DNA from: Nitrospirota bacterium | GTDB taxonomy: Bacteria > Nitrospirota > Thermodesulfovibrionia > Thermodesulfovibrionales > SM23-35 | Assembly: GCA_040754395.1 (NCBI GenBank) | Contig: JBFMCL010000019.1 | Coordinates: 1-64,000 of the forward strand | DNA length: 64,000 bases | Direction of reading: 5' to 3' | Shown: one piece after another, positions 26,227-54,031 of the stretch | Position numbering within the stretch: position 1 is the first letter of the stretch | Layout of the letters: the number at the start of each line of letters is the position of its first letter | Notes under the pieces: generated by a model | What the model was told of the DNA's origin: nothing | What the model saw: only the letters and a program-made list of their open reading frames with translations | Database searches by the model: none | Program-made: the position numbers and the translations under genes

Positions 26227-27486
26227 ATGAGCGTGTCAGAAGACTGGGATACTAAACAGAAATGTATTGCGGACATTTCCGGATGGCGGGAGAGGTTCCC
26301 TGTCGTACATGAACTGGCGGTCAGCGGCGACGGGGAAAAGATAGCCGCTGTCGTCGAAATCGGACAAAAGCAGGTTGCTCCCTGTCTGAACGGGGATCTC
26401 TGGCATGATACCTATGAAAGGGCGTGGTCGCTCAGATTTACCCCTGATGCCCGCCTCGCATGTGCAGTCCTGCGTGATTTTGCATGGACCGTTGCGGTGG
26501 ATGAAGTACCGTGGGAACAGCGGTATGATTACGTGTGGAATATGACCTTCAGCCCTGAAGGGAGGGACATCGCGGTGAATATCAAAGAGGAAAACGAATT
26601 CGGGGTGTCTCTGAACGGAAGAGCCTGGTCGCACAGATTTCCTGAAGCGCGTGATCTCGCCATCAGTCCTGACGGAAGAAAAACCGCATCACGTGTAAAA
26701 GTGAAGAGAATTGCGGAACAGGACATCTTCGGTTTTGCAGAGAAGATCATATCAGTTGCGGTGAACGGAGAGAAATGGAATGACAATTTCCTGAGCGTCT
26801 CCGGTATGACCTTCAGCAATGACAGTACAGGGGTAGCAGCAGGAATCAGGACGGACCGGATGGAATTTTCTGTGTCGGTCGATGGGAAGCCATGGCACGA
26901 GCGTTTTCTCCAGGTGTGGGAACCGGTGTTCCATCCCCATTGCAAAGATGTTATCGCTCCGGTAAAGACGGAATGGGGGTGGACTCTTGCGAGAAACGGG
27001 GAGATCATCTGGAACCGGAGGTTCACCCAGCTCTGGGGGCAGAGATGGAGCCCCGATGGCGAGAGGATCGCTGCGGTAGTAGCAACGAAATTCGGCGACT
27101 GGACGATTGCGGTTGACGGCCTGCCATGGAAACGGACGTTCAGTGACGCGGTGCTGTTCCCTGTGTTCAGTCCGGATGGAAGCAGGGTTGCGGCAATCGT
27201 GAAGGAGAAGAACCGATATACCATCGCGGTAGACGGGAAACCATGGGAGAAGGATTTCGACATGATATGGGACCCTCTTTTCAGCCCGGACGGAAGGAAA
27301 GCTGCTGCAAGGGCCGAAAAGAACGGGAGGTTCTTCCTGGTGATAAACGGAAAGACCGGCAGCGAATCATATGAGATGCTCTGGGATCCGGTGTTCAGCG
27401 GAGACGGGGAGAAGATCTTGTTGAGATATATTGAAGGCGGCAGGTATTACCGGAGAATATCTCTGGTCGGAGAATATCAATGTTAG
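26227..27486 (+). CDS. Trp-rich beta-propeller protein, TmcD-like, copy 1 (419 aa)
   Basis: About ten repeats of roughly 41 residues, each ending in a phrase like W.PVFSPDG..VAA and followed by a TIAVDG.PW strand, as in WD40-like/PD40 beta propellers. No signal peptide is seen, so it is probably cytosolic. Two paralogues lie at 29275 and 46830, and all three are linked to HmcF-like genes. Its stop overlaps the start of the HmcF-like gene by 7 nt. The Tmc complex of Desulfovibrio has a Trp-rich propeller-type subunit, TmcD, which this recalls. A structural role docking the HdrD-like subunit to partners is plausible but inferred. Confidence 0.75.
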   Translation: MSVSEDWDTKQKCIADISGWRERFPVVHELAVSGDGEKIAAVVEIGQKQVAPCLNGDLWHDTYERAWSLRFTPDARLACAVLRDFAWTVAVDEVPWEQRYDYVWNMTFSPEGRDIAVNIKEENEFGVSLNGRAWSHRFPEARDLAISPDGRKTASRVKVKRIAEQDIFGFAEKIISVAVNGEKWNDNFLSVSGMTFSNDSTGVAAGIRTDRMEFSVSVDGKPWHERFLQVWEPVFHPHCKDVIAPVKTEWGWTLARNGEIIWNRRFTQLWGQRWSPDGERIAAVVATKFGDWTIAVDGLPWKRTFSDAVLFPVFSPDGSRVAAIVKEKNRYTIAVDGKPWEKDFDMIWDPLFSPDGRKAAARAEKNGRFFLVINGKTGSESYEMLWDPVFSGDGEKILLRYIEGGRYYRRISLVGEYQC

Positions 27487-28814
27487 AGGTCAGAAGGAAA
27501 CCTGTTTCCGATCCGGGCATGGATGAAACGGCCAGAAACCTTACCCCAGAAAAAATCGGAAGAGTAATCAAATGGGTCCTTGAAAAAGAAGCTGATCCGA
27601 GGTTTCAGACATTTGTCGAGACCTGCATCCACTGCAGTCTCTGTTCGGAGGCATGTCATTTTTACCGCTCATACAGAAGGGATCCCACCTATGCACCGGT
27701 CAGCAAGGTGAGACAGACCCTGTGGGACATGCTGAAGCATAAGGGCAGAATGGACGGAGAACGCATAAAAAGGTATGCGAGGATAGCTTTTACTGAGTGC
27801 AATCTCTGCAAGCGCTGCAGCATGTACTGCCCCTTTGGTATAGACATCGCGTACCTGATGTCACTGGTGCGGCGTATCTGCGGACTTCTGGAGGTTGTTC
27901 CCCGGGCCCTCCAGGATCAGGCAAACAGCCACATGTATACTTATACCCAGGCATGGGTTGCCCAGGACGACTGGGTGGACACGGTACAGTTTGTTGAGGA
28001 TGAACTCAGGATGGAACTCAGGAACGCCCGCATCCCCCTTGACAGGACAGGCGCGGAGATCATGTATTCCCCGCACAGCCTTGAGACGAAGTTCAAGACC
28101 AATATCCTGTCGAATATCGCGAAAATCATGACGGTTGCAGGGGTTGACTGGACGATGCCGTCCGCCGACGGCTGGGACAGCACCAACCAGGCTATGCATA
28201 TGGGAGACTACGAGACAATGGCCATGGTCGAGAAAAAGCATTTTGAAGCTGCCATGAGGCTTAAGGTGAAAAAAATCATGACCAGTGAATGAGGCCACTC
28301 ATTCAGGGCCGCAGTGTATGACGGCTCACGGTGGTTAGGATGGAGGCAACCGCCTCTGGAGTATCTCCAGCCGACGCAATTTTTCTATGAGCTTATAAGG
28401 GACGAAAGACTGAAGATCGCAAAGAAAATTCAGGAACCTGTTACAGTGCAGGAACCGTGCAGCATCGTCCGGAACAGGGGGCTGGGGGATATGCTCCGTT
28501 CCATCATCGAGGCGACCTGCGAGGACTTCAGGGATGTGACCCCCCGGTATGAGCATAATTACTGCTGCGGTGCGGGTTCGGGGGTGATCAACTACGGCCC
28601 TCCCTGGAAATTCATCAGGATGGAAGGCGGACGCGTGAAAATGAAACAGCTCAGGGATACAGGGGCAAAGACCGTGATTGCGCCGTGCCACAGCTGTCAT
28701 AAGACCATAGAGGAAATGATGCATCATTACCACGCTGACATGAACGTCATTTTCATCAGTGAGCTGCTTGTCAGAACAATGGAGATCCCGGAGCCCCTCA
28801 GGGTATCCGGCTGA
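27480..28814 (+). CDS. HmcF/TmcB/DsrK-like iron-sulfur subunit, predicted selenoprotein with one Sec (444 aa)
   Basis: A cytoplasmic HdrD-family subunit that couples quinone- or cytochrome-linked electrons to a thiol/disulfide-type partner. Residues about 56-67 and 105-115 hold two 4Fe-4S groups (CIHCSLCSEAC, CNLCKRCSMYC). The C-terminal CCG domain has EPCSIV, NYCCGAGSG and PCHSCH (Cys403). Codon 271 is TGA at 28290-28292 inside SE-(TGA)-GHSFRAAVYDG. The paralogue at 31320 has Cys271 in GE-C-GHAFRAAVYDG. The frame continues intact for 173 codons beyond it. A SECIS-like hairpin follows at 28306-28327. Selenocysteine insertion is therefore more likely than a nonsense mutation. Without Sec machinery it would stop at 270 residues. 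Its start overlaps the propeller gene. Confidence 0.8.
28306..28327 (+). promoter_or_regulatory. Candidate bacterial SECIS hairpin for the UGA at 28290
   Basis: GGGCCGCA pairs with UG-a-CGGCUC (8 bp, one bulged A and one G-U pair) around the 5-nt loop GUGUA. The loop begins with G and 21 nt separate it from the UGA, within the spacing known for bacterial SECIS elements. The same codons in the Cys paralogue at 32130 cannot form the stem. Confidence 0.65.
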
Positions 28815-30534: not shown

Positions 30535-30577
30535 TTAAAAGGGATGCGGTGAGCAAGAAATGGTATGAAAAATATTT

Positions 30578-31255: not shown

Positions 31256-31319
31256 TAAGGACTATTAATAATGATACAGAAACATATCAGTGATGAATCG
31301 TTTTTTCGGGGAGTAACGA

Positions 31320-32681
31320 GTGTTTAAGGTTGAGCGAAAACCCGTCGCCGATCTCGGTATGGATGACACGGCGAAAGGGCTTGCCCCCGAAAGGATCGAA
31401 AAGGTTATGCGGTGGGTTCTTGAGAGGGAATCAGATGCGAGACTGAGGACGTATGTGGAGACCTGTATCCACTGCGGGCTCTGCTCCGAGGCCTGCCACT
31501 ATTACCTGTCATACAAGAGAGACCCGAGCTATGCCCCGGTCAGCAAAGTCAGGCAGACCCTTTGGGACATATTGGGCAGGAAGCATCCGGCTGACGGAGA
31601 AACCGTGAAGAAATATGCCAGGATTGCCTTTGCCGAATGCAATCTCTGCAGGCGCTGCAGCATGTACTGTCCTTTCGGCATCGATATCGCGTACCTGCTT
31701 GCATTGGTGCGCCGCATCTGCGGGCTCCTCAATGTCGCACCCCAGTATCTCCAGGACAATACGAACAGCCATATCCATACCTTTACGCAGTCATGGGTGG
31801 GCCAGGATGACTATGTGGATACGCTCCAGTTTCTCGAGGAAGAACTCAGGATGGATATCCTCAACGCCCGCATCCCCCTTGACAAAACGGGAGCCGAGTA
31901 CATGTATACGCCCCACAGCCACGAGGTTACATTCAAGACACATCTTTTGGCCAACATGGCAAGGATACTGAATGTGGCAGGGATTGACTGGACCATGCCG
32001 TCCACGGACGGATGGGAAAATACCAATCAGGCGATGCATGCAGGTTACTACGAGACCATGGGGATGATCGAACGGAAGCATTTCGAGGCTGCGTTCCGTC
32101 TGAAGGTCAGAAGAATCCTCGCAGGCGAATGCGGGCATGCATTCAGGGCTGCGGTCTACGACGGGACCCGCTGGCTCGGATGGAAAACCCCGCCGGTACC
32201 CTATGTGTCCGCAATCCAGTTTTTTTACGAGCTTGTCAGGGACGGAAGGATCAGAATAGCCCGGAAAATCCAGGAGCCTGTAACGGTGCAGGACCCGTGC
32301 AGTTTTGTGCGGAACAGGGGACTCGGAGAGATGCTCCGGTATATCATCAGGGCAACCTGCGAGGATTTTAGGGAGGTGACCCCGAAGCTGGAGCATAATT
32401 ACTGCTGCTGTGCAGGCGGAGGAGTGATCAACTACGGACCGCCATGGAAATTCATCAGGATGGAGGGCGGGAGAATAAAGGTCAGGCAGTTCAGGGAAAC
32501 CGGTGCAAAGATCGTTATCGCCCCTTGCCACAGCTGCCACAAGACAATCGAAGAGATGAGCGATTTCTACAAGCTCGGACTTCATGTGCTGTTTGCAAAT
32601 GAATTGATAGTGAAAACCATGGAGGTTCCCGAAGCAATGAGAGCGGTGCAGCAAAAAAATGAAGGAACGGGCGGTGTATAA
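31320..32681 (+). CDS. hmcF: HmcF/TmcB/DsrK-like iron-sulfur subunit, cysteine form (453 aa)
   Basis: The uninterrupted paralogue of the proteins at 27480 and 48817. It has two 4Fe-4S groups (CIHCGLCSEAC, CNLCRRCSMYC), Cys271 in GECGHAFRAA, and a CCG domain with DPCSFV, NYCCCAGGG and APCHSCH (Cys403). This domain binds the special catalytic 4Fe-4S cluster in HdrB/HdrD/DsrK relatives. It serves as the cysteine reference for the two UGA-containing copies. GTG is the start codon. The last 23 nt overlap the 16-haem cytochrome gene, and the cytochrome b gene lies upstream, as in hmc operons. Confidence 0.85.
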   Translation: MFKVERKPVADLGMDDTAKGLAPERIEKVMRWVLERESDARLRTYVETCIHCGLCSEACHYYLSYKRDPSYAPVSKVRQTLWDILGRKHPADGETVKKYARIAFAECNLCRRCSMYCPFGIDIAYLLALVRRICGLLNVAPQYLQDNTNSHIHTFTQSWVGQDDYVDTLQFLEEELRMDILNARIPLDKTGAEYMYTPHSHEVTFKTHLLANMARILNVAGIDWTMPSTDGWENTNQAMHAGYYETMGMIERKHFEAAFRLKVRRILAGECGHAFRAAVYDGTRWLGWKTPPVPYVSAIQFFYELVRDGRIRIARKIQEPVTVQDPCSFVRNRGLGEMLRYIIRATCEDFREVTPKLEHNYCCCAGGGVINYGPPWKFIRMEGGRIKVRQFRETGAKIVIAPCHSCHKTIEEMSDFYKLGLHVLFANELIVKTMEVPEAMRAVQQKNEGTGGV

Positions 32682-34248: not shown

Positions 34249-34261
34249 CCCGGAGGACTGA

Positions 34262-34396
34262 ATGTATATCATAGACCAGATTTTTTCCGGCAAGGGGTAT
34301 GAATACGCGATCGCTGTCGGTTTTCTGTTTGTCTTTATCATCTTCTACAGATTCCTCTGCACTGACAGGACAGAGGAAGAAGACGAGGGGATATGA
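34262..34396 (+). CDS. hmcD: HmcD-like single-span membrane peptide (44 aa)
   Basis: A short gene starting with ATG behind CCGGAGGA. The peptide has one membrane segment (about residues 14-31, rich in F, V and I) and an acidic C-terminus (DRTEEEDEGI). In Desulfovibrio hmc operons a peptide of similar size, HmcD, is encoded between the other subunits. The same kind of peptide ends operon 2 at 54060. Confidence 0.7.
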   Translation: MYIIDQIFSGKGYEYAIAVGFLFVFIIFYRFLCTDRTEEEDEGI

Positions 34397-34478
34397 ACCC
34401 GTGTGTCCCGGAATGTGCGAGGCTTAGTCTGCTGTGCACAGGAACCAGGCGCACCAGAGTGCAGGGCGGAGAGCATTA

Positions 34479-35423
34479 ATGGGTATCAGCAGAAGAAATT
34501 TTCTGATAAGGTCCGCAGCGCTTGCAGGTGCGGCAGTTGTCGGCTCTATCACGAAGGTGCGAGCTGGCCAGACTCCTGACAGCAGGGGAGAGGGCTATGG
34601 AGTGCTCATCGATACGACCTTCTGCAACGGCTGCAGAAAGTGTGAATGGGCATGCAATGAATGGAACAAAAATCCCAACCAGCCCATAAAGGCGTATGAG
34701 AACAAGTCTGTGTTTGAGACCTACAGACGCACTCATGCGCATACGTTTACCGTTGTGAACAGGTTCATCAATCCCCTGAATGCAGAGCCTGTATATGTAA
34801 AAAAACAGTGTATGCACTGTCAGGACCCCGCCTGTGTTTCAGCATGCTTTGTGGAAGCATTCACAAAAACAGGAAGGGGAGCGGTGATCTACAATCCCGA
34901 TGTCTGTGTGGGATGCCGCTACTGCATGATCGCGTGCCCTTTTGACATCCCTGCATATGAATACCACGAACCGGTGAGCCCGGGGGTGACCAAATGCACG
35001 CTCTGTTATGACAGGATACGCAGGGATGGCGGTCTGCCGGCATGTGTTGAAGTCTGTCCCACGGAAACGCTCAGGTTCGGTCCACGAAAAGAACTGATTG
35101 CAGTGGCACATGAAAGGATACGAAACAACCTGAAAAAATATGTGGATTACGTGTACGGAGAGCATGAGGTCGGAGGCACAAGCTGGCTTTATCTGTCTGC
35201 AGTGCCTTTTGAAGAGATAGGATTGAGACAGGATCTCGGCACCAGGCCGATACCGGATACAGGCAAAGGGTTTATGTTTATGGTGAAGGTTCTCGAAATT
35301 GTCGCTGCATGGCCGCTTGTCTTTGCAGCCTTTCATGCAATTGCACGATTACGGAAAAAGAACGCTGATACCCGGGTGTCAGCAGACGATAAAAATGCAG
35401 AAGAACATGACAGAAAAAGCTGA
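34479..35423 (+). CDS. hmcB: HmcB-like periplasmic ferredoxin subunit with Tat signal and C-terminal anchor (314 aa)
   Basis: The N-terminus has a twin-arginine signal (SRRNFLIRSAALAGAA). Four 4Fe-4S groups follow in DmsB/NrfC style: CNGCRKCEWAC, CMHCQDPACVSAC, CVGCRYCMIAC and CTLCYDR...CVEVC. A hydrophobic helix near the C-terminus (about 272-292) would anchor it. The ATG at 34479 has GGCGGAGAG upstream and places the Tat motif at the start; an earlier in-frame start is unlikely. It connects HmcA haems with the NrfD-type subunit. Its end overlaps the next start. Confidence 0.9.
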   Translation: MGISRRNFLIRSAALAGAAVVGSITKVRAGQTPDSRGEGYGVLIDTTFCNGCRKCEWACNEWNKNPNQPIKAYENKSVFETYRRTHAHTFTVVNRFINPLNAEPVYVKKQCMHCQDPACVSACFVEAFTKTGRGAVIYNPDVCVGCRYCMIACPFDIPAYEYHEPVSPGVTKCTLCYDRIRRDGGLPACVEVCPTETLRFGPRKELIAVAHERIRNNLKKYVDYVYGEHEVGGTSWLYLSAVPFEEIGLRQDLGTRPIPDTGKGFMFMVKVLEIVAAWPLVFAAFHAIARLRKKNADTRVSADDKNAEEHDRKS

Positions 35424-36621
35424 TTCATCGTCCTGGGTCCGGAAAAAGATATTCATGGGAATGACATTCCGTGAATATCTGAAGAGCTGTGTTACCCTCA
35501 CGAATGGTATTGCAGCGCTGATCCTGATCGTCTCTGTCCCGGTAATGATCTACAGGCTGGTCTACGGACTCGGCCCGTCTACCAATCTTTCTGATACCAA
35601 TCCATGGGGGATATGGATCGGTATCGATGTGTTGAGCGGGATTGCACTGGCTGCCGGAGGGCTGGTCATAGGGACAGCATATTACCTTTTCGGCATGAAA
35701 GAATACCATCATTTTGTGAGGCCTGCCATTCTCACGAGCCTGCTCGGCTACCTCTTCGCAGTTCTGGGGCTTCTCTTTGACCTCGGCCGCTATTATCGCC
35801 TTCCTTATCCGATGGTCGTCTCATTCGGCCTGTCTTCGATCATGTTTCTCATCGCATGGCATTTCGCACTCTATATCATGGTGCTTTTCGTGGAGTGGAG
35901 CCCTGCATTGTGGGAATGGCTCAACATGAGAAAGGCCCGGCAGTGGTTCAGCAGAATGGCTGTGTGGGCGACTGTGTTCGGGGTCATTATTGCGGGAGGG
36001 CATCAGTCTGCGCTTGGCGCATTGTTTCTCATTGCGCCGGGCAAGCTGCATCCGCTCTGGTATTCTGAACTGCTTCCGCTTTATTTCCTGATATCGGCGA
36101 TTATCGCCGGCCTTTCGATCGTTATTTTTGAGAGTGCACTGACCCGCCGAATTTTCACAGAAAAGGTTGAACATTTTGATTCAGGCCGGTTTGACAGGCT
36201 GACGATCAGCCTTGGAAAGGCCTCTTCAGCTGCGCTGTTCACCTATTTTTTCCTCAAGCTCCTCGGACTGGCACATGCGCATACCTGGCCTCTCCTGAGT
36301 ACACCATATGGATTCTGGTTCCTGTTCGAAATGCTGGCATGCGTGCTTCTTCCCGCATTTCTTTTTGCCTATGGGGTCAGATACCGCAATGCGAAAGTCA
36401 CGAGATGGACAGCCCTTCTTGCGATTACCGGCATTGTCCTCAACCGGGTCAATACCTCGATCATCGCCTTTAACTGGAATGCGCCGGAACGGTATTACCC
36501 CCTCTGGTCTGAAGTGGTCATCACGGTCGGCATCATTACCATGGCGGTCATTGCGTTCCGCTGGATTGTCAATCGCATGGCAATCCTGCATGAGCATCCG
36601 GACTATGAATCATCACACTGA
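35407..36621 (+). CDS. hmcC: HmcC-like NrfD/PsrC-family membrane subunit (404 aa)
   Basis: A polytopic protein with about nine to ten membrane segments, of the NrfD/PsrC/HybB type that binds quinone without haem. Typical phrases are NPWGIWIGIDVLSGIALAAG, RYYRLPYPM and HQSALGALFLIAPGKLHPLW. The ATG at 35407 is preferred: it follows AGAAG and overlaps the end of HmcB by 17 nt. Upstream in-frame starts would add residues from the HmcB region. It completes a full Hmc set (E, F, A, D, B, C plus the propeller). Confidence 0.9.
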   Translation: MTEKADSSSWVRKKIFMGMTFREYLKSCVTLTNGIAALILIVSVPVMIYRLVYGLGPSTNLSDTNPWGIWIGIDVLSGIALAAGGLVIGTAYYLFGMKEYHHFVRPAILTSLLGYLFAVLGLLFDLGRYYRLPYPMVVSFGLSSIMFLIAWHFALYIMVLFVEWSPALWEWLNMRKARQWFSRMAVWATVFGVIIAGGHQSALGALFLIAPGKLHPLWYSELLPLYFLISAIIAGLSIVIFESALTRRIFTEKVEHFDSGRFDRLTISLGKASSAALFTYFFLKLLGLAHAHTWPLLSTPYGFWFLFEMLACVLLPAFLFAYGVRYRNAKVTRWTALLAITGIVLNRVNTSIIAFNWNAPERYYPLWSEVVITVGIITMAVIAFRWIVNRMAILHEHPDYESSH

Positions 36622-42864: not shown

Positions 42865-43224
42865 TCATAATCCGCCGAGCAGATAGGAAAGCTCTTTCTT
42901 GGGCTGAGGAAGACCCGCCATTTTCCATGCCACCGCATGGCTGCCGAAAAGCCTGAGAACACTTCCGGTCGACTTGTGCATGCTCTTGGCGACCATGGTG
43001 AGTGAAGGGAAAATATAATTTTGCTTGTAATATCCTCGTATGAAATAGAGTATCTCCAGCATATCGGGGGTTATTTCTTTTTTGAAGAGAGTTTTTGCAA
43101 GAGCACACGCCACAAATTCATTCCAGTCGTCCGGATTCAGAAGATATCCTTCGTTGTCTATCTTGAACTCAATTCCTTCACAGTGGATTGTCTGTTGTTG
43201 ATCAAATTTATCTTCCATGTTCAT
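42865..43224 (-). CDS. DsrC/TusE-like protein without C-terminal cysteines, copy 2 (119 aa)
   Basis: The DsrC fold is recognisable: DNEGYLLNPDDWNEFVACALA, then LEILYFIRGYYKQNYIFPSL, and the end AWKMAGLPQPKKELSYLLGGL. True DsrC carries one or two Cys after the AGLPxP motif, used as a disulfide or trisulfide carrier; here there are none. It is therefore a DsrC-like protein with another role, perhaps regulatory. Its start overlaps the first paralogue by 17 nt, so the two are coupled. Confidence 0.8.
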   Translation of the reverse strand: MNMEDKFDQQQTIHCEGIEFKIDNEGYLLNPDDWNEFVACALAKTLFKKEITPDMLEILYFIRGYYKQNYIFPSLTMVAKSMHKSTGSVLRLFGSHAVAWKMAGLPQPKKELSYLLGGL

Positions 43225-43579
43225 AATTATGTATGCCGGATAGGGGTTCTTTTGGCTGAGGAAGTCCGGCTATTTTCCATGCTGTTGCATGATTTCCAAA
43301 GATTGCCATGACGTTTCCTGTCGGTTTTTCGAGACTTCGGGCAACGAAACTGAGAGACGGAAACGAGTTTTTATTCTGATAGTGGTCTCTGATGAAATAC
43401 AGAATGCCCAGCATGACAGGGGAGAGTTCCTTTTTCCCTTCTTTTTTTGCAAGGGCGCATGCGACAAATTCGTTCCAGTCCGCAGGGTTCAGAAGAAACC
43501 CCTGATCGTCAACATGAAAGACGATCCCGTCGCAATTGATTTTCTGGATGCCTGATGGCCTGAATGATATCGGTGACAT
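43208..43579 (-). CDS. DsrC/TusE-like protein without C-terminal cysteines, copy 1 (123 aa)
   Basis: A paralogue of the neighbouring gene: DDQGFLLNPADWNEFVACALA, LGILYFIRDHYQNKNSFPSL, AWKIAGLPQPKEPLSG. Again no Cys follows AGLPQP. The frame is open further upstream to 43633, but that extension overlaps the promoter, so ATG 43579 is preferred. Two tandem cysteine-less DsrC homologues in a genome with three DsrK/HmcF-like proteins is notable, because DsrC is the classical DsrK partner. Confidence 0.8.
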   Translation of the reverse strand: MSPISFRPSGIQKINCDGIVFHVDDQGFLLNPADWNEFVACALAKKEGKKELSPVMLGILYFIRDHYQNKNSFPSLSFVARSLEKPTGNVMAIFGNHATAWKIAGLPQPKEPLSGIHNYEHGR

Positions 43580-43615
43580 ATATATTATTAATTTATAATT
43601 ATATTGATAATCAAA

Positions 43616-43644
43616 ATTATAGTTAATATGCAAATCAAAATCAA
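43616..43644 (-). promoter_or_regulatory. Promoter of the DsrC-like pair
   Basis: On the minus strand: TTGATT (43644-43639), a 17-bp spacer and a perfect TATAAT (43621-43616). The start would be near 43609, about 30 nt before the ATG at 43579. The surroundings are very AT-rich. Confidence 0.55.
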
Positions 43645-44111: not shown

Positions 44112-45272
44112 ATGAGACTGTTAGTTTTAGGCGGCGGATGTGCTGGTACAATGATTGCGAACAAGATGAGAAGGAAGTTTCACAAGGATGAACTGGAGAT
44201 CGTAGTTATCGAAAGAAGCGAAAAACACCTCTATCAGCCCGGGTATACACTTCTCTGCTTTGATCTTGTGGAACCGGAAGACCTGATAAGACCGACGAGG
44301 GACCAGTTCCTGGATGGTATTAATCTTATTTTCGACGAGGCGTTGAAGATAGATTCACAGAACAACAAGGTGGTGACAAAAGAGCACGGAGAATTATCGT
44401 ACGATTATCTTGTCATCGCAACAGGCGCAACCTATGTGTATGGCGAACCGGAAGGAGCAAAAGAGGCGCTCGATAAAGGCGGTGATTTCGGCATGTTCTA
44501 TACCTTTGACGGTGCTCTGAAGATGAGGGATGCCATTAAGAATATCGATGGGGGCACGATCGTCTCCCTGATAACCGACCTCCCGATCAAATGCCCTGCT
44601 GCTCCGATAAAATTCATCGCGATGGCTGAAGACACGATGAGAAGGATGGGGAAAAGGGATAAATTCAGATTCATCATCACAAGCCCGATGCCGAAAAGTT
44701 TTTCGAGAGAGCCGTATGCGTCAAAGCTGAGCAAGATTTTTGAAAACAGGGATATTGAGGTTGTTGCAAACTATGTCCCCGCAGAGATCGACCACGAGAA
44801 AAAGATTATCAAAGGCTATGACGGAAGAGAACTGCGGTATGACCTCTGCTGCTTTACTCCTTCCCACGAAGGCGAGCAGGTTATTCAGGAATCTGAAGGA
44901 ATCGGGGATGCCTCCGGCTATGTCGCGGCGGATAAATTCAAGATGAACAGCAAACATGCTGCCAATATTTTTACTCTCGGTGATGCTTCAGATTTTCCGA
45001 CATCGAAGACAGCATCCGGTGCAAGAAAGCAGGCAGCCATATTATCGAACAGGCTGAGTTCGCTGATTAAGGGCGAACCGATGTCTGACAAGGATATTTA
45101 TGATGGTGAGATCATATGCCCGATTCTGACCAGGGACAAGAGAGTCATGTTTGCGCACTTCAACTACACCGAGAGCATATCAGCAGCGCAGGAAAGCTAT
45201 ATCAACTGGGTGCTCAAGGTATATATGCTGAGAGGCCTTTACTGGAATCTCATGATGCCGGGCTTAATGTAG
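44112..45272 (+). CDS. Sulfide:quinone reductase-like FAD oxidoreductase (386 aa)
   Basis: A two-dinucleotide-fold flavoprotein: FAD-binding LVLGGGCAGTMIANKM at the start, LVIATGATYVYG in the middle, and ANIFTLGDASDFPTSKTASG as the second FAD contact. Cys in IKCPAAPIKF and DLCCFTPSHEG are in the regions where SQR has redox cysteines. The C-terminal YINWVLKVYMLRGLYWNLMMPG looks amphipathic, as in membrane-bound SQRs. Substrate assignment (sulfide) is likely but not certain; other persulfide or NADH oxidoreductases share the fold. The DUF1641 gene downstream is a common partner of such flavoproteins. Confidence 0.75.
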   Translation: MRLLVLGGGCAGTMIANKMRRKFHKDELEIVVIERSEKHLYQPGYTLLCFDLVEPEDLIRPTRDQFLDGINLIFDEALKIDSQNNKVVTKEHGELSYDYLVIATGATYVYGEPEGAKEALDKGGDFGMFYTFDGALKMRDAIKNIDGGTIVSLITDLPIKCPAAPIKFIAMAEDTMRRMGKRDKFRFIITSPMPKSFSREPYASKLSKIFENRDIEVVANYVPAEIDHEKKIIKGYDGRELRYDLCCFTPSHEGEQVIQESEGIGDASGYVAADKFKMNSKHAANIFTLGDASDFPTSKTASGARKQAAILSNRLSSLIKGEPMSDKDIYDGEIICPILTRDKRVMFAHFNYTESISAAQESYINWVLKVYMLRGLYWNLMMPGLM

Positions 45273-45326: not shown

Positions 45327-46442
45327 ATGGCAGAGAAACCTACGCTGAAACCGTCAAATGGCGACGAAAAGATGGCTGCCCAGGTTAATGAGATATACAG
45401 CAAATTCCACATGGTAGAGAATCTGCTCGCTGACCTGAGTCCGGCCCTAGAGAAGATTTCGAAGGATTTACATCCGACCATAAAGGACTTAAGAGAGAAA
45501 TATGAGCGTGATGAAACCGTTGAACTGATCCGTAAAGTAGGCGACAACATCCCGACATTCCTGCAGCTTTTCGAGATGATGAAGATTGTGAAGGGGCTGC
45601 TTGCGGACATGATGCCTGCGGTGGAGAAGATCGCTGACGACGCATCGCCGGTCATCAAGGACATGCGTGAGCGGTTCGAGCGGGAGGAAACATTGGCCCT
45701 GCTGAAGAAGGTGGGCGACAACATCCCGCTGTTCCTGCAGCTGTTCGACATGATGAAGATCGGACAGGGAATGCTTGCGGACCTGATGCCTGCGGTGGAA
45801 AAGATCGTTGACGACGCATCGCCGGTCATCAAGGACATGCGTGAGCGGTTCGAGCGGGAGGAAACATTGGCCCTGCTGAAGAAGGTGGGCGACAACATCC
45901 CGCTGTTCCTGCAGCTGATGAGCTTGATCCCGGTCGGTAAAGGACTGGTCGAAGATATGCTTCCCGCTGTCGACAAAATTACTCATGACATCTCTCCGAC
46001 AATAACTCAACTGAGGGAGAAGTACGAACGCGAAGAGACACTTGAGATGATTATGAAGCTCGGGGATGATATTCCCGTACTGATTATCCTTCTCGACTTG
46101 TTGGGGAAGCAGGAGATCCCGGGCATGCTTAATAAGCTTGGGGAGCAGATGGCGATGTTTGAAAAACTCGTTGATTTTCTCGATGAGTTCGGAAAGACAG
46201 GCATACTTGACGTGGTGACAAAGCTGATGGTGTCAAAAGAAATGAACTTCATGATCAGAGGAATCGACAAGTGTGCCATTACTGCGTTGCAGGATATCAG
46301 AAGCAATCCCGTGAAACCCGGAATCAAGAATCTCATCACCGCTGTCATGGACCCGGAAGTACAAAAAGGTCTTTTGATATTGACCAAGTTCGCAAAATAT
46401 CTGCCAAGGAGCTTGGCAGAGGCACAGAAGGAAGTCGGATAG
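45327..46442 (+). CDS. DUF1641 protein with expanded internal repeats (371 aa)
   Basis: A helical protein made of about four 58-residue repeats with the phrase LADxMPAVEKIxDDASPVIK then EREETLALLKKVGDNIPLFL, ending in a typical DUF1641 C-terminal region (GILDVVTKLMVSKEMNFMIRG). Normal DUF1641 proteins are much shorter. AAAGGAGC precedes the ATG. The gene follows the SQR-like gene by 55 nt and ends at a strong terminator, so the two form an operon. The function of DUF1641 is unknown; partnership with the flavoprotein is inferred. Confidence 0.75.
   Translation: MAEKPTLKPSNGDEKMAAQVNEIYSKFHMVENLLADLSPALEKISKDLHPTIKDLREKYERDETVELIRKVGDNIPTFLQLFEMMKIVKGLLADMMPAVEKIADDASPVIKDMRERFEREETLALLKKVGDNIPLFLQLFDMMKIGQGMLADLMPAVEKIVDDASPVIKDMRERFEREETLALLKKVGDNIPLFLQLMSLIPVGKGLVEDMLPAVDKITHDISPTITQLREKYEREETLEMIMKLGDDIPVLIILLDLLGKQEIPGMLNKLGEQMAMFEKLVDFLDEFGKTGILDVVTKLMVSKEMNFMIRGIDKCAITALQDIRSNPVKPGIKNLITAVMDPEVQKGLLILTKFAKYLPRSLAEAQKEVG
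45636..45917 (+). repeat. In-gene tandem repeat, 174-bp period
   Basis: The stretch beginning GACGACGCATCGCCGGTCAT at 45636 recurs at 45810 with near-perfect identity over more than 100 bases, including silent positions. The period equals 58 codons. Such identity at the DNA level implies recent duplication or gene conversion between repeat units. Confidence 0.85.
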
Positions 46443-46829: not shown

Positions 46830-48086
46830 ATGGCGGATATAGCGGAGTGGGATTGGGATACAGGTCAAAAGAAAGTAGCGGACATAAATCAGTGGAAGAA
46901 GACATTCCACGCAGTCCGTGAATTGGTCGCCAGCGATGACGGCGAAAAAATCGCAGCGGTAGTAGAAACCGATGACAAGAGATTTACCACGTGCGTGAAC
47001 GGTGAAGCATGGGAAGAAACCTTCGAACGTCTCTGGTTCCTGAGATTCAACATGGATAATCAGCTTTATTCCCTGGCGTACAGGGATTATGAATGGGCGG
47101 TCGCAGTTGATCATGAAATGTGGGAAGAGAAATTTGACACAATATGGAATCTCCAGCTTACTCCCGACAGAAAAGGCGCGGTAGCCAACTGCAAGAAAGA
47201 CAATACGTACGGGATTGTCCTGAACGGAAACGTCTGGGAAAACAGGTTTGCTGATGCACGGAACCTCGCTATCAGTTCTGACGGGCAGAAGACCGCTGCC
47301 AACGTCCAGACGAAATCAATCAAGGTTGCAGATATCTTTGCGTTTGCAGAAGGAATCTATTCCATTGCAGTAAACGGGGAGCCATGGGACAGGAATTTCA
47401 TGAGCGTATGGAGTTTCACGTTCAGTCCTGACGGGAGCAAGGTTGCTGCGGAGGTAATGCTGGATGTGGGTGCCTTTACCATTGCGGTTGACGGGACCCC
47501 ATGGGAGCAGACGTTCGGCTGCGTATGGGAGCCTCTTTTTGTTCCGGGAACCTCAGATGTCATTGCGCCTGTAAAAAGAGGAGCGGTATGGACGCTGGCC
47601 GTAAACGGCAAACCGGTATGGGGAGATTTTTTCCAGTTGTGGGGACAGAAGTACAGCAATGACAGAAAAAAATTGGCTGCGATTGTTGCGACAGATTTCG
47701 CGAAATGGACGATAGCAGTTGACGGTATCCCGTGGAACAGGACATGGGATGAAACTGTCTTGTCTCCTTTTTTCAGCCCTGACAGCAAAAGAGTTGCCGC
47801 AATTGTGAAAGAGCATAACAGATGGACGATAGCAGTTGACGGCGCTCCATGGGCCAGTACCTTTGACATGGTATGGGACCCCATATTTGCCCCCGGAGGA
47901 GATAAGGTAATCGCAAAGGCGGAAAAGGACAAAAAATATTACATGGTCGTTGACGGCAGGATAGGAAAAAAGGGACACGATGCGCTCTGGAATCCGGTCT
48001 TCAGCCCTGACGGCAGCAAGGTGTTGTTCAGATGCGTGGAGGGCGGAAAATATTATCGCAGAGTCGTTCCGGTAAACGAAATATAA
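46830..48086 (+). CDS. Trp-rich beta-propeller protein, TmcD-like, copy 3 (418 aa)
   Basis: The third paralogue of the propeller family, with about ten repeats of W.P.FSPD...VAA and WTIAVDG.PW phrases and a terminal RCVEGGKYYRRV. It heads Hmc operon 2 behind a clear promoter and is 15 nt from the cytochrome b gene. It starts MADIAEWDWDTGQKKVADI, close to the other copies (DWDT..K). No signal peptide. Its constant linkage to HmcF-like genes marks it as a probable complex subunit. Confidence 0.75.
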   Translation: MADIAEWDWDTGQKKVADINQWKKTFHAVRELVASDDGEKIAAVVETDDKRFTTCVNGEAWEETFERLWFLRFNMDNQLYSLAYRDYEWAVAVDHEMWEEKFDTIWNLQLTPDRKGAVANCKKDNTYGIVLNGNVWENRFADARNLAISSDGQKTAANVQTKSIKVADIFAFAEGIYSIAVNGEPWDRNFMSVWSFTFSPDGSKVAAEVMLDVGAFTIAVDGTPWEQTFGCVWEPLFVPGTSDVIAPVKRGAVWTLAVNGKPVWGDFFQLWGQKYSNDRKKLAAIVATDFAKWTIAVDGIPWNRTWDETVLSPFFSPDSKRVAAIVKEHNRWTIAVDGAPWASTFDMVWDPIFAPGGDKVIAKAEKDKKYYMVVDGRIGKKGHDALWNPVFSPDGSKVLFRCVEGGKYYRRVVPVNEI

Positions 48087-48101: not shown

Positions 48102-48776
48102 ATGTATGACTTTATAAAAGATCCGTCTCTGTATAGTTTCGTCAGAGGCCCCCTGGTCTGGATTGCATTTTTTGTATTCATCGGCGGGAGCGTATACAAA
48201 ATAAGGGAATTGTATCTGCTCGCCAAAAAAGAAAAAGTGGTGATACCGTTTCTCGATATCAAATACAGCCTGCGGTCGATTGTTCACTGGGTGCTCCCTT
48301 TCGGGAGCGTGAACTGGAGAAAGCGCTGGGTGATGACCACCATGACTTTTGCGTTTCACATATGCCTTGTATTTACCCCGATATTCCTGCTTTCCCACAA
48401 TGTTCTCTGGTACGAATCCTGGGGCATAACCTGGTGGACGCTCCCCGAAAGTCTTGCTGATATCATGACTCTCATTGTCATTGTCACCTGTGTCTTCTTC
48501 TTCCTGAGAAGGATTCTTGCCCCGCAGGTAAGATTCGTTACCTTTTCTTCCGATTACCTTATTCTTGCTATCGCATTCGCCCCGTTCATAACCGGTTTTC
48601 TTGCGTATCACCAATGGCTTCTTCCGTATAAGATAATGGTTATTCTCCATATAATTGCCGGTGCAGGTATGCTTATCGCGATACCTTTTACCAGATTGGG
48701 ACATATGTTCTATTTCTTTTTGACAAGGGCATATCTGGGATCTGAAATCGCATTCCGGAAAGGGACAGACTGGTAA
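48102..48776 (+). CDS. hmcE: HmcE-like membrane cytochrome b subunit, operon 2 (224 aa)
   Basis: A NarI/DsrM-type protein with about five membrane helices, parallel to the protein at 30578 (MYDFIKDPSLYSFVRGPLVW versus MYDFLTGMEFYRFLKGPMVW). Conserved His residues lie in the helices (AFHICLVFTP, AYHQWLLPYK, LHIIAG). GCAGGGAGA precedes the ATG. It is expected to bind two haems b and interact with quinone and with the HmcF-like subunit encoded next. Confidence 0.8.
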   Translation: MYDFIKDPSLYSFVRGPLVWIAFFVFIGGSVYKIRELYLLAKKEKVVIPFLDIKYSLRSIVHWVLPFGSVNWRKRWVMTTMTFAFHICLVFTPIFLLSHNVLWYESWGITWWTLPESLADIMTLIVIVTCVFFFLRRILAPQVRFVTFSSDYLILAIAFAPFITGFLAYHQWLLPYKIMVILHIIAGAGMLIAIPFTRLGHMFYFFLTRAYLGSEIAFRKGTDW

Positions 48777-48816: not shown

Positions 48817-50133
48817 ATGATAACCTACGAAAGGACCCCTATTGCCGATCTGGGCATCGATGAATCGGCAAAACGACTGACACCAGAAAAGATCGAAAAA
48901 ACGATTAATGCAGTTCTCAAGGGAACAGGGGCACGGCTGAAGGCGTATCTTGAAACCTGTATTCACTGTGCATTATGTTCAGAGGCCTGTCACTATTATC
49001 TCTCGCATGACAAGGATCCGACTTACTCGCCAGTTGCCAAGGTTAAACTGACCTTATGGGAAATGGTCAAAAAGAAAGGCAAGGTGAGTCCTGATTTCAT
49101 CCGCCAATGCTCAAGGATCGCATACACTGAATGCAACCGTTGCCGGAGGTGCAGTCTCTACTGCCCTTATGGCATAGACATATGGTATCTGATGGCGCTC
49201 GTCCGCCGTATCTGCCTGCTTCTCAAAGTAGTGCCGCAGTATGAAATGGATACAAACTATAGTCATGCGGCGACACTCAACATGATGTGGCTGAAACAGG
49301 ATGACTGGGTTGACACCGTTCAGTGGCAGGAAGAAGAAGTCAGAATGGAATATCCCACCGCCCGCATTCCGTTTGACAAGGAGGGAGCGGAAATCATGTA
49401 TACGCCGATTGCGCCTGAACCGAAATTCAAACCGCAGCTCCTTGCGGCAACGGCAAAAATATTCCATGCTGCCGGGGTTGACTGGACGATGCCGTCGTTC
49501 GATGGCTGGGACAACAGTGACATATCAATGCATGTTGCCGATTTCGAGACCATGGCGCGGGTTGAAAGAAAACACTTTGAGGCAGCCTTCAAACTGAAAG
49601 TCAAGCGAATAGTAATGTGCGAGTGAGGGCACGCATTTAACGCCGCAAGTTATGTGGCACCGCAATGGTTAGGATGGAAGCAGTCACCGATAGAATATGT
49701 TCATGCAGTGAAATTCTATTATGAACTCATCAGGGACGGAAGAATAAAAATCATCAGGAAGATCACGGAACCCGTTACCTATCAGGAGCCATGCAATATT
49801 GTCAGGAATGCCGGTTACAAGGATATGCTCCGGTATATCATCGAGGCGGTATGTGAAGACATACGGGATCCGTATCCCAACGGCATGCATAATTACTGCT
49901 GTATTGCCGGCGGAGGCGTGATCAACTGCGGACCTCCGTACAAGATGACGAGGATGATCGGCAACAGGGTCAAGGCCGAGCAGTTTGCTGCCACGGGCGC
50001 TCATATTATCATATCCCCTTGACACAACTGCCATAGTGGGATTGAAGATCTCACCAAGCATTACAAGCTGAAAATGCATGCGGTATTTTTCTCGGACGTA
50101 CTGCTCCAGTGTATGGAGCTGCCAAAGGAGTGA
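48817..50133 (+). CDS. HmcF/TmcB/DsrK-like iron-sulfur subunit, predicted selenoprotein with two Sec (438 aa)
   Basis: Same family as 27480 and 31320: 4Fe-4S groups CIHCALCSEAC and CNRCRRCSLYC, then the CCG-type C-terminal domain with EPCNIV and NYCCIAGGG. Two in-frame TGA codons interrupt it. TGA at 49624-49626 (codon 270) lies in CE-(TGA)-GHAFNAA, where the Cys form has GE-C-GHAF. TGA at 50020-50022 (codon 402) lies in SP-(TGA)-HNCH, where the others have AP-C-HSCH, a cluster-ligand CxxC. Between and after them the frame is intact and conserved to the stop at 50131. Each TGA has a SECIS-like hairpin 20-21 nt on. Double Sec in a cluster-binding domain is the best reading; the alternative, two nonsense mutations exactly at conserved Cys codons, is improbable. 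Confidence 0.85.
49642..49658 (+). promoter_or_regulatory. Candidate bacterial SECIS hairpin for the UGA at 49624
   Basis: GCCGCA pairs with UGUGGC (6 bp, one G-U) around the loop AGUUA, with G at loop position two. The loop starts 21 nt after the UGA, exactly as in the copy at 28306. The stem region aligns codon for codon with that hairpin. Confidence 0.65.
50036..50054 (+). promoter_or_regulatory. Candidate bacterial SECIS hairpin for the UGA at 50020
   Basis: GUGGGAU pairs with AUCUCAC (7 bp, one G-U) around the loop UGAAG, with G at loop position two; 20 nt separate UGA and loop. Neither homologous Cys copy (28686 or 32526) can form this stem. Confidence 0.65.
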
Positions 50134-50167: not shown

Positions 50168-51868
50168 ATGAACAGAAAGATAATTATCTTGGGAGTAAGC
50201 ATAGTGTATCTTATCCTGCTTATTTACGGTTTAAGTACCGTTTATTCTGTGGGGAATCCTGTTCCTCCGAAGATGCTGAAGGTCGAAAAACCCGAAAACC
50301 TGATAGCAATTGCGCATACGGAAATCTTTGGCAGACTCGAGCGTCCCCAGGTCATATTCAATCACAAGAAGCATGAAGAGGCCCTGAAGGCAGATGGGTG
50401 CAATGCCTGCCATACGGAAGCTGAGGATGGCTCGGTAAAGTTCGATTTTCCGAAGGATGTCAAGAAAAAAGACAAAAAGTCTGTAATGAATGCCTACCAT
50501 GACGAATGCATCGACTGTCATAAAAAGAAAAGCAGCGAAAACAAGGAAACCGGACCTGTAATATGCGCTGACTGTCATTCGAACAGAACCGCGCACCTGG
50601 AAATTATCTATCCGGTCGTTGAGTTTGATTTTGCGCATCACGACACGCATGTCACGAAGCTCAGGGAGAAGATCGGCAAGGATGACTGCAGCCTCTGTCA
50701 TCATATGTACGATATTTATGAAGAGGATGAGGCACTGCGGCTGGTGTATGAAGAAGGCGCAGAGGAATCCTGCTATTACTGTCACGAGCTCGGGAAAAAA
50801 CGGGGACCTGAACACGCCGAGATCACCCGTGTGGCAGCCGGGAAAGGGCTTTCGATCCGTACGGCCTCCCACCGGCAATGTCTCAACTGCCATTTAAAAT
50901 ATCAAGAAGAATATATCAAAAAGGGAGAAAAGGATGCATGTCCTACTGAATGCATAAAATGCCATACGGGAAAGTATAAAACGGTCTCAGAACTTGAAAA
51001 AATTTCCCGTCCTGACCGCAACCAGAAGAATACGCTGTTTATAGATATTGAGAACTCGAAAATGAAGGGAGTTACATTTGATCATAAGTCTCATGAAACG
51101 AGTTCAAGGACATGCCGGAGCTGTCACCATGAGACATTAAAGGCATGCAAGGAGTGTCACAGCCTGACTGGCAAGCCTGAAGGAAGCGGAATTAATATTG
51201 CGCGAGCATATCATGATGTGTTTTCTGAACACAGTTGTGCGGGCTGCCATAACAGGAAGAAAGCAGACAAGAAGTGCGCGGGCTGCCATTACTATATATC
51301 CGATATGGACATTGAGACGATGAACCCGAAAAAAGAAACCTGCGCCATATGTCATAACGGCAGGAAGGATAAGGTGGTAATGCCGAAACCCCTTTCTGCT
51401 GCCGGACTCGACCAGCAGAAGGTGAAGAAAGATGTTGAGATTAAGATACTGGAAAAGGAATTCGAACCATCGAAGTTTCCTCACCGTGACATCATCGACA
51501 AACTGGTAAAGGTTTCAAACGACAGCAGGCTTGCAACGTACTTTCACCGGGATATTCAAACGATTTGTGAGGGCTGTCATCACAGGAGCGATACCCGGGC
51601 TGAAGCGCAGAAAGACACTCCCCCGTACTGCAGGAACTGCCATATGGCTGCATATGACCGCCAGAACCTCAACAAAACCAGACTGCTTTCTGCATATCAC
51701 CGTCAGTGCCTGGGCTGCCATGAAAAGATGGAACTTGAAAAAGGCAGAAAGTGCAGCGAATGCCATAAGGAGAAACAGGAAGGTCCTGCTGAGATCACTT
51801 CTCTGAAGAACGAACAGGTCGTATCTCAGAATACGCGCAAGACCTTGAACGTCTGGAGACCAAAATGA
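50168..51868 (+). CDS. hmcA: HmcA-like 16-haem cytochrome c, operon 2 (566 aa)
   Basis: An N-terminal hydrophobic segment (about residues 4-25) is followed by 16 CxxCH motifs, from CNACH (about residue 79) to CSECH near 530. The repeated spacing mirrors the protein at 32659, including CYYCH, CRSCHHE, CAGCHNRKKADKKCAGCH and CEGCHHR. Insertions make it about 37 residues longer. It is a periplasmic electron carrier for the membrane complex. GGGAAGG precedes the ATG at 50168. Confidence 0.9.
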   Translation: MNRKIIILGVSIVYLILLIYGLSTVYSVGNPVPPKMLKVEKPENLIAIAHTEIFGRLERPQVIFNHKKHEEALKADGCNACHTEAEDGSVKFDFPKDVKKKDKKSVMNAYHDECIDCHKKKSSENKETGPVICADCHSNRTAHLEIIYPVVEFDFAHHDTHVTKLREKIGKDDCSLCHHMYDIYEEDEALRLVYEEGAEESCYYCHELGKKRGPEHAEITRVAAGKGLSIRTASHRQCLNCHLKYQEEYIKKGEKDACPTECIKCHTGKYKTVSELEKISRPDRNQKNTLFIDIENSKMKGVTFDHKSHETSSRTCRSCHHETLKACKECHSLTGKPEGSGINIARAYHDVFSEHSCAGCHNRKKADKKCAGCHYYISDMDIETMNPKKETCAICHNGRKDKVVMPKPLSAAGLDQQKVKKDVEIKILEKEFEPSKFPHRDIIDKLVKVSNDSRLATYFHRDIQTICEGCHHRSDTRAEAQKDTPPYCRNCHMAAYDRQNLNKTRLLSAYHRQCLGCHEKMELEKGRKCSECHKEKQEGPAEITSLKNEQVVSQNTRKTLNVWRPK

Positions 51869-51915: not shown

Positions 51916-52803
51916 ATGGACAGAAGGGCATTTCTAAAACTGATGGGAGCAACGATGGCAGGAACTGCCGGAGGATCCCTCTGGTCACCACGCCTGTCTG
52001 GAGCTCAGGGGCATAATCCGGAAGGGAAGGAATTTTACGGTATTCTTGTGGATACCACACGATGCATCGGCTGCAGGCGATGCGAAAAAGCGTGTGCAGA
52101 AGTGAACGGTCTGCCGATTCCCGACATATCAGAATCGACCAATGAATCTGTTCTGAAAACGAAGCGGAAGACTACCGATACCCAGTATACGGTCATAAGC
52201 CGGTACGAGACAGACAGCGGAACAGTTTTCGTGCCAAGGAGATGCATGCACTGCAACCAGCCTGGATGCACTGCGGCATGCCTGGTGAAAGCCATGAAGA
52301 AACGGAAGACCGGGCAGGTGACCTGGGACCTGAACTGCATCGGCTGCAGATTATGCATGATTTCATGTCCTTTTGACATTCCGAAGTTTGAATATGGCAA
52401 AGCAATACCGAGAATTCAGAAATGCAATCTCTGCTGGGACAGGTTTAATCAGGGCGGACTCCCGGGATGTGTTGAGGTATGTCCTACACAGGCATTGATG
52501 TTCGGTACGAGGAGACAGATTCTTGAAGAAGGGAAGAGGAGGATCGCCACGGGACCTGACAAATATATTGACCATATCTTCGGTGAATATGAGGTTGGCG
52601 GTACCTCGCACCTGTATCTTTCTTCTGTCCCCTTCGAGCAGATAGGGTTCCGGAAAGACCTCGGAACTGTTCCATATCCGGAGTACAGTACCGGATTCCT
52701 TTATGCAGTACCCTTTATTTTCGTGCTCTGGCCTATTGTTATGCTTGGCATTAACCGGGCAACAAAAGGAAATGGTAAAGGAAAGGATGAACATCATGGA
52801 TGA
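51916..52803 (+). CDS. hmcB: HmcB-like periplasmic ferredoxin subunit, operon 2 (295 aa)
   Basis: A Tat signal (DRRAFLKLMGATMAGTAGG) is followed by four 4Fe-4S groups: CIGCRRCEKAC, CMHCNQPGCTAAC, CIGCRLCMISC and CNLCWDR...CVEVC. A C-terminal hydrophobic anchor (about 262-282, FLYAVPFIFVLWPIVML) precedes a charged tail. GAGAGGAGCGAGG precedes the ATG. It overlaps the HmcC gene by 8 nt. Confidence 0.9.
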   Translation: MDRRAFLKLMGATMAGTAGGSLWSPRLSGAQGHNPEGKEFYGILVDTTRCIGCRRCEKACAEVNGLPIPDISESTNESVLKTKRKTTDTQYTVISRYETDSGTVFVPRRCMHCNQPGCTAACLVKAMKKRKTGQVTWDLNCIGCRLCMISCPFDIPKFEYGKAIPRIQKCNLCWDRFNQGGLPGCVEVCPTQALMFGTRRQILEEGKRRIATGPDKYIDHIFGEYEVGGTSHLYLSSVPFEQIGFRKDLGTVPYPEYSTGFLYAVPFIFVLWPIVMLGINRATKGNGKGKDEHHG

Positions 52804-54031
52804 AAAAACTGCGGCAGTTGAAATAAAGAGCTTTGGAGAATTCTGGACCTACCTGAAAGGTGAACTGAGACCGAGAGGGCATATCGCTACTCCTTTTAAT
52901 ATCATTTCACTTCCAATCATGCTGCTCGGTTACGTCTTTATCGTACTCCGTCTTGTGTATGGTCTTGGACAACCCATAACAAACCTGAATCAGGAATACC
53001 CGTGGGGACTCTGGATCGGGTTTGATGTCGTAACCGGCGTTGCCTTTGCAGGGGGCGCATATGTGCTGTGTTTCATTGTGTATATCCTGAGAGCTGAAAA
53101 ATACCATCCTATTATAAGAGCAACAGTGCTCAACGGATTCCTTGCATATCTTTTTTACGCCGGTGCGATCGTGCTCGATATCGGGCGCTGGTGGAATATC
53201 TACAACCCGATGGTCGGGAATGACTTTGGTGTGAATGCCGTCATGTTCCTTGTAGCATGGCATTTCTTCCTCTATATGCTCGCAGAACTCGTTGAATTTT
53301 CTCCCGCCATCGCAGAATGGCTCGGTCTGCGCAGGGTGCGAAAAATACTTGGTGGCCTCACACTCGGTGCGGTCATATTTGGCATTACCCTCTCGACGCT
53401 CCACCAGTCAGGTCTCGGTGCGCTCATGATGATGGCCAAGAGCAAGATACATCCCCTGTGGTATACCGATTTTATCCCGATCCTTTATTTTGTATCGAGT
53501 ATCTTCGCCGGGCTGTCGATGGTGATCTTTGAAGGTTCGATAAGCCATAAAGTCTTTGCCTATCAGATAGATGCAGAACATCATCATTCCTATGAGGATA
53601 TCCTGGTTGGACTCGCAAGGATATGTGCGGTGGCGATGTTCGGGTACCTCTTCCTGAAGGCAATCCTTCTTGTGCACGAACATGCCGTTCCCTATTTAAA
53701 CAGCACGATGGGATTCTGGTACCTTTTTGAGGTCATCGGATTTGTGCTCATTCCCTGTCTCATGTTCGTCAGCGGCGCGACGCGGAAAGATATATCGATT
53801 ATCAAGTTTGCTGCAATCCTGACAATGCTTGGCATCATACTCAACAGGCTTAACTATACTTTTATCGCATATAACTGGTATGTGCCGTTAAGCGAAAAAT
53901 ACTGGCCTTCAGCGATTGAATTGATTATCACGGCGTCTATTATCCTTACCGAAGTCTGGGTGTTCAGGTGGATGGTAAACAGGATGCCGGTGCTCAGAAA
54001 GCCTCCTGAATGGGCTGCGAAACTGCATTGA
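52796..54031 (+). CDS. hmcC: HmcC-like NrfD/PsrC-family membrane subunit, operon 2 (411 aa)
   Basis: A polytopic quinone-interacting subunit like that at 35407: YPWGLWIGFDVVTGVAFAGG, GRWWNIYNPM and HQSGLGALMMMAKSKIHPLW match it closely. About ten membrane segments. The ATG at 52796 follows GGAAAGGA and is preferred over earlier in-frame starts that overlap HmcB extensively. Confidence 0.9.
   Translation: MDEKTAAVEIKSFGEFWTYLKGELRPRGHIATPFNIISLPIMLLGYVFIVLRLVYGLGQPITNLNQEYPWGLWIGFDVVTGVAFAGGAYVLCFIVYILRAEKYHPIIRATVLNGFLAYLFYAGAIVLDIGRWWNIYNPMVGNDFGVNAVMFLVAWHFFLYMLAELVEFSPAIAEWLGLRRVRKILGGLTLGAVIFGITLSTLHQSGLGALMMMAKSKIHPLWYTDFIPILYFVSSIFAGLSMVIFEGSISHKVFAYQIDAEHHHSYEDILVGLARICAVAMFGYLFLKAILLVHEHAVPYLNSTMGFWYLFEVIGFVLIPCLMFVSGATRKDISIIKFAAILTMLGIILNRLNYTFIAYNWYVPLSEKYWPSAIELIITASIILTEVWVFRWMVNRMPVLRKPPEWAAKLH

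Follow-up and report, generated by a model that had tools for sequence, protein, structure and literature searches.

Two in-frame UGA codons in a gene from a sulfate-reducer-type Nitrospirota bacterium are likely to specify selenocysteine (Sec), and we read its product as the TmcB-type catalytic subunit of a Tmc/Hmc-like transmembrane redox complex. The gene lies in the 64,000-nucleotide stretch of DNA analyzed here, called the window (contig JBFMCL010000019.1 of assembly GCA_040754395.1). The first UGA codon (site 270) belongs to a set of homologous sites at which UGA and Cys codons alternate. The weakest link of the two-selenocysteine reading is the second UGA codon (site 402), for which the evidence comes from a single assembly.

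The TmcB-type gene and its in-frame UGA codons

When TGA is read as selenocysteine, the frame is open over its full length (Table 1), internal TGA codons occur at codons 270 and 402 only, and the terminal stop is the TGA at 50131. The initial annotation had placed both internal TGA codons at positions where a nearby paralog carries cysteine, and our alignment with that paralog (57% identity) agrees. The same annotation had labeled the product an HmcF/DsrK-type subunit. This label was replaced because the best NCBIfam family is TmcB (671 bits), followed by HmcF (361 bits) and DsrK (184 bits). The HmcF (NF045711, 360.8 bits) and DsrK (NF045796, 183.6 bits) assignments were rejected against curated cutoffs of 750 and 400, respectively. 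The TmcB match (NF045724, 670.6 bits) covers model positions 3 to 429 of 430 and is also under its curated cutoff (735), as is that of the Cys-only paralog (596.7 bits). Judged by sequence, the product is a TmcB-type CCG-domain subunit that stops short of a strict equivalog. Purifying selection acts over the gene, because its codon differences from an 88%-identical ortholog comprise 217 synonymous and 51 nonsynonymous changes.

Genes for tmcD, tmcC, the TmcB-type subunit, an HmcA-type cytochrome, an HmcB-like subunit, and an NrfD/HmcC-like subunit follow one another in this order and make up a tmcDCB-hmcABC-like cluster. Adjoining tmcC and tmcD genes, the neighborhood by which TmcB is recognized, are therefore present, with the scores given in Table 1.

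Table 1. Coordinates of the gene, its UGA sites and hairpins, and neighboring or paralogous genes in the window
Feature	Position	Strand	Comment
TmcD-family subunit	46830..48086	+	NF045725, 510 bits, above cutoff
TmcC-family membrane anchor	48102..48776	+	NF045723, 289 bits, above cutoff
tmcB-type gene with two in-frame UGA codons	48817..50133	+	438 residues if both UGA codons are Sec
UGA-270	49624..49626	+	Motif E-U-G-H; UGA and Cys alternate
SECIS-like hairpin 1	49642..49658	+	GCCGCA-AGUUA-UGUGGC; conserved at the same offset in UGA homologs
UGA-402	50020..50022	+	Motif P-U-H-N-C; predicted noncubane cluster ligand
SECIS-like hairpin 2	50036..50054	+	GUGGGAU-UGAAG-AUCUCAC; absent from Cys ortholog
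HmcA-type multiheme cytochrome c	50168..51868	+	NF045713, 485 bits, above cutoff
HmcB-like 4Fe-4S subunit	51916..52803	+	NF045715, 337 bits, under cutoff (420)
HmcC/NrfD-like membrane subunit	52703..54031	+	NF045714, 378 bits, under cutoff (550); Pfam NrfD
Cys-only tmcB paralog	31320..32681	+	In a parallel tmcDCB-hmcABC-like set, 29275-36621
Third tmcB paralog	27480..28814	+	One in-frame UGA (28290-28292), aligned with UGA-270

Three tmcB paralogs in this genome form a series with zero, one, and two predicted selenocysteines (genes starting at 31320, 27480, and 48817, respectively). The one-TGA member had been overlooked in the initial annotation. It is directly preceded by a tmcD gene (26227-27486), and an interrupted version of hairpin 1 lies downstream of its UGA codon. 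A scan of the window for read-through UGA codons, whose length filter site 402 did not reach, returned no coherent gene beyond the tmcB sites, and the other hits look spurious.

Several further features were recorded during this survey. A 371-amino-acid open frame (45327-46442, + strand) just upstream of tmcD matches no NCBIfam family, and its Pfam matches are all dubious. For the flavoprotein encoded at 44112-45272 (+ strand), the best match is NF049943 (322 bits, cutoff 525), which describes type III sulfide:quinone reductases of the selenoprotein subtype; its gene is devoid of in-frame UGA codons. In a relative (genome G011, contig C86), the tmcB homolog L123 ends mid-contig after about residue 238 and is followed by unrelated sequence.

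UGA and cysteine codons alternate at site 270

Alternation between UGA and Cys codons in homologs, which had been suggested as a check, is found at site 270. Among the homologs examined, 16 distinct genes carry UGA and 102 carry a Cys codon at this position, and the homolog tree requires at least four switches between Sec and Cys. A scan of named genomes yielded 80 loci, with UGA-270 in one that is itself from Nitrospirota.

The initial annotation had also described a hairpin after each UGA codon, and both are present. Hairpin 1 has a 6-bp stem and hairpin 2 a 7-bp stem, each with one G-U pair; their loops begin 21 and 20 nucleotides past the respective UGA, and the second loop nucleotide is G in both. 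Hairpins with 6 or more stem base pairs and a G at the start of the loop are present at the same offset in 13 of the 16 UGA-270 genes, compared to only 1 of the 102 Cys genes. In the remaining three UGA genes, the hairpin is interrupted by a bulge or mismatch. Between the present gene and the 88%-identical ortholog (75% DNA identity), the pair closing the loop of hairpin 1 differs on both sides, A-U versus G-C, which is a compensatory change. Over the 16 UGA-270 sites, 87.5% of the pair cells are paired, compared to 15% to 55% when the partner strand is slid. Formal covariation is modest because the 16 sites are closely related, and the covariance model built from them is dominated by TmcB-specific codons. 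Although an Rfam scan of sites 270 and 402 gave no SECIS match, we predict that both hairpins are SECIS-like, with conservation across homologs at site 270 only. Given these comparisons among homologous sequences, we regard UGA-270 as a secure selenocysteine site.

An additional cysteine (Cys268) precedes U270 in this gene (C-E-U-G-H, 49618-49626 of the window) and in the 88%-identical ortholog (L105), whereas other homologs listed have G, S, or T at position 268. A selenenylsulfide pair between Cys268 and U270 is conceivable.

A second selenocysteine was probably gained recently at site 402

Position 402 is Cys in all 115 other homologs examined, and UGA occurs there in this genome only. Among the matches in 231 genomes of the class, there is no second gene with two TGA codons. 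The 88%-identical ortholog carries TGT at this position and has no hairpin, with a folding energy of 0.0 kcal/mol compared to -6.8 kcal/mol in the present gene. Between the two genes, the stem of hairpin 2 differs by A to G (which removes an A-C mismatch) and by two U to C changes (each converting a G-U pair to G-C), such that all three differences favor pairing. One of them contributes to the substitution I413T, and T413 is not shared by the closest homologs. Hairpin 2 is probably derived, since an outgroup homolog (L025) also has no such stem.

This distribution raises the prospect that only U270 is a genuine selenocysteine and that UGA-402 reflects an error of sequencing or assembly, a polymorphism among strains, or a newly arisen nonsense mutation. 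Confinement of the codon to one assembly, with Cys in every other homolog including the closest ortholog, is what such an event would produce. However, a one-base error would leave hairpin 2 unexplained, including the further stem differences that improve pairing. With this geometry, stems of 7 bp or more arose in 0.55% of synonymous resamplings, occur at 0.54% of 11,564 codons in the window, and are found at site 402 in none of the 115 Cys homologs; so long a stem at this site thus has a chance of about 0.5%. The local folding energy was equaled in 0.3% of synonymous resamplings. Furthermore, the 36 codons past UGA-402 remain in frame and conserved, as the initial annotation had maintained. 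We therefore consider error or fresh mutation at site 402 unlikely.

UGA-402 could instead be decoded as cysteine by a tRNA-Cys that resembles tRNA-Sec (the selC* class), or it could serve as a regulated stop that yields a truncated product. Nitrospirae are known to contain tRNA-Cys of the selC* class, some with a UCA anticodon (PMC7609411). A Sec-like tRNA of 100 nucleotides that resembles this class is indeed present in the genome (C16:80860-80959, with U73). Its anticodon, however, is GCA, both here and in the relative G018, and so reads UGC and UGU rather than UGA. The Cys-inserting tRNA was rejected as the decoder of UGA-402 on account of this anticodon. Truncation at codon 402 would remove two of the five predicted cluster ligands described below. 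Both versions of this alternative are very unlikely in our estimation. In G018, a second selB gene (L156:2593-4536) overlaps at its start with a similar tRNA-Cys (L156:4505-4600) and adjoins YedF/TusA-like and cysteine desulfurase-like genes.

We thus favor, with good confidence, the interpretation that UGA-402 is a recently gained second selenocysteine codon. The comparison with homologs suggests that the gain occurred in the lineage of this genome, once it had split from the closest relative compared.

Selenocysteine machinery

The initial annotation had made its proposal depend on the presence of selenocysteine machinery, and this expectation is borne out in part. A tRNA-Sec gene with a UCA anticodon is present at C1:231988 of the genome assembly (C1:231988-232081), and selD is present at C11:63923 with a UGA codon near its own start. 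In contrast, selA and selB were not found in this assembly, which is scored as 99.96% complete. Matches to SelB in the genome were rejected because the proteins involved were judged to be IF2, BipA, and LepA. The tRNA-Sec gene is located about 1.3 kb from a contig end and beside transposase-like open frames.

These absences would be expected if the lineage had lost the selenocysteine pathway, leaving its two UGA-bearing tmcB genes as decaying pseudogenes. However, selA, purF, a peptidase gene, and selB form one block of about 6 kb in the three relatives examined, and the whole block is missing here. The purF part of the query matches only a 609-amino-acid frame with 26% identity in this assembly, which is probably GlmS. 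Because purF is missing along with its neighbors in the block, the absence of selA and selB is probably an assembly gap. EF-Tu is likewise represented only by fragments at contig ends. The surroundings of YggS-ProC and DnaJ are uninformative regarding this gap because their gene order differs between genomes. Moreover, selB is above the cutoff in 58 of the 61 genomes searched, and selA is above the cutoff in 15 of the 20 genomes of the family. The persistence of tRNA-Sec, a UGA-containing selD, two UGA-bearing tmcB genes, and purifying selection also argues against pathway loss, which we judge to be extremely improbable. The simplest explanation for the absence of selA and selB is that a single block is missing from the assembly, in addition to gaps of the usual kind.

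Five relatives from the same family (G003, G007, G011, G013, and G018) each carry two selB genes that are complete or almost so, and members of the family may commonly possess a dual SelB system.

Predicted cluster ligands and a proposed mechanism

Among solved structures, EtfD (9OJN) and HdrB (5ODC) are the best matches in both sequence and fold, and the structural model of the product has a pLDDT of 86. In EtfD, the noncubane cluster is bound by C637, C672, C673, C709, C712, and H583, and the linear cluster by C503, C538, C581, and C584 (PMC13083937). Ligands were mapped by counting along printed alignments, at 18% structural similarity and with remote sequence similarity. On this basis, C326, C361, C362, U402, and C405 align with EtfD C637, C672, C673, C709, and C712, such that all five of these ligand positions are occupied, while U270 aligns with C581 and H272 with H583. 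Residue 402 had previously been assigned to the CxxC of the CCG domain, and its alignment with EtfD Cys709 and with the first Cys of the HdrB CxxC supports this placement.

The bridging, displaceable cysteine of this half of HdrB is Cys234, the second of the CxxC, whose counterpart here is C405. Therefore, U402 is predicted to be a terminal selenolate ligand of the noncubane [4Fe-4S] cluster. U270 appears to stand alone beside the probable sixth ligand (H272), because the other linear-cluster cysteines are without counterparts. This arrangement predicts that U270 is adjacent to the histidine that binds the noncubane cluster.

In the mechanism we propose, electrons from periplasmic multiheme cytochromes would traverse the membrane via the NrfD-like, HmcB-like, and TmcC subunits. 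They would then pass through two [4Fe-4S] clusters of TmcB to one noncubane [4Fe-4S] cluster in the CCG domain. The noncubane cluster would reduce a disulfide or persulfide in the cytoplasm, with DsrC as the most plausible carrier. U270, as the only remnant of the ligand set of a degenerate N-terminal CCG half, would provide a selenol that attacks or holds the substrate, and both selenium atoms would act on one catalytic center. Under selenium shortage, the Cys-only paralog located 17 kb from this gene may take its place.

The choice of DsrC as substrate draws on the literature, in which Tmc is predicted to reduce cytoplasmic DsrC (PMC10553843). The genome encodes a canonical DsrC (C32:6263) that has both cysteines at its C terminus, and a DsrK-like gene is near it on the same contig. 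In the window, two adjoining DsrC/TusE-family genes (42865-43224 and 43208-43633, - strand) are close to the tmc clusters, and both encode proteins without the C-terminal cysteines of canonical DsrC.

Relation to known systems

A 2026 review lists an Fe-S oxidoreductase-like selenoprotein (PTHR43551, e.g., WP_174406253.1) with the motif UGH and one selenocysteine (PMC13188914). Its likeness to the present protein, judged from the listed motif and family, consists of the U-G-H motif at site 270 and membership among Fe-S oxidoreductases, whereas no selenocysteine is listed for it at the CCG CxxC. The novelty of selenocysteine in this subunit type, which the initial annotation had implied, is accordingly not supported: selenocysteine at site 270 is known in kind, and the second selenocysteine at site 402 is the new part.

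TmcB of the Tmc complex (NF045724) has in common with our gene a full-length match and TmcC and TmcD neighbors. The present gene differs by its score under the cutoff, by its two predicted selenocysteines, and by an adjacent HmcA-type cytochrome, with none reaching the TmcA cutoff. HdrB and EtfD share the fold and the five C-terminal CCG ligand positions with the product. Their ligands, however, are all Cys, whereas U402 takes the place of EtfD C709 here and the N-terminal CCG ligands have been lost except for U270. Selenocysteine-containing Hdr proteins of Desulfobacterium autotrophicum (HdrA, HdrL, HdrD4, and HdrF2) are likewise electron-transfer proteins with Cys paralogs in the same genome, although they are other subunits, and the part of that source available to us does not list TmcBCA among the selenoproteins (PMC2702500).

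What would distinguish the present system is a native, catalytic noncubane [4Fe-4S] cluster ligated by U402 and accompanied by a second selenol (U270), with the UGA codon and SECIS element recently gained jointly and with zero- and one-selenocysteine paralogs alongside. We lean toward this fuller picture, with less confidence than toward the two-selenocysteine reading itself. The best-known roles of selenocysteine are those of a free catalytic residue and of a ligand to nickel, molybdenum, or tungsten. A limited search of the open-access literature found no description of a noncubane Fe-S cluster with selenocysteine among its ligands.

If U402 is real, it would represent a natural selenolate-for-thiolate swap on a catalytic iron-sulfur cluster. 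Matched paralogs with zero, one, and two selenocysteines in one background would make the effect of selenocysteine on potential, reactivity, and oxygen sensitivity directly comparable. Furthermore, site 402 seems to show a Cys-to-Sec conversion at an early stage, together with its SECIS element.
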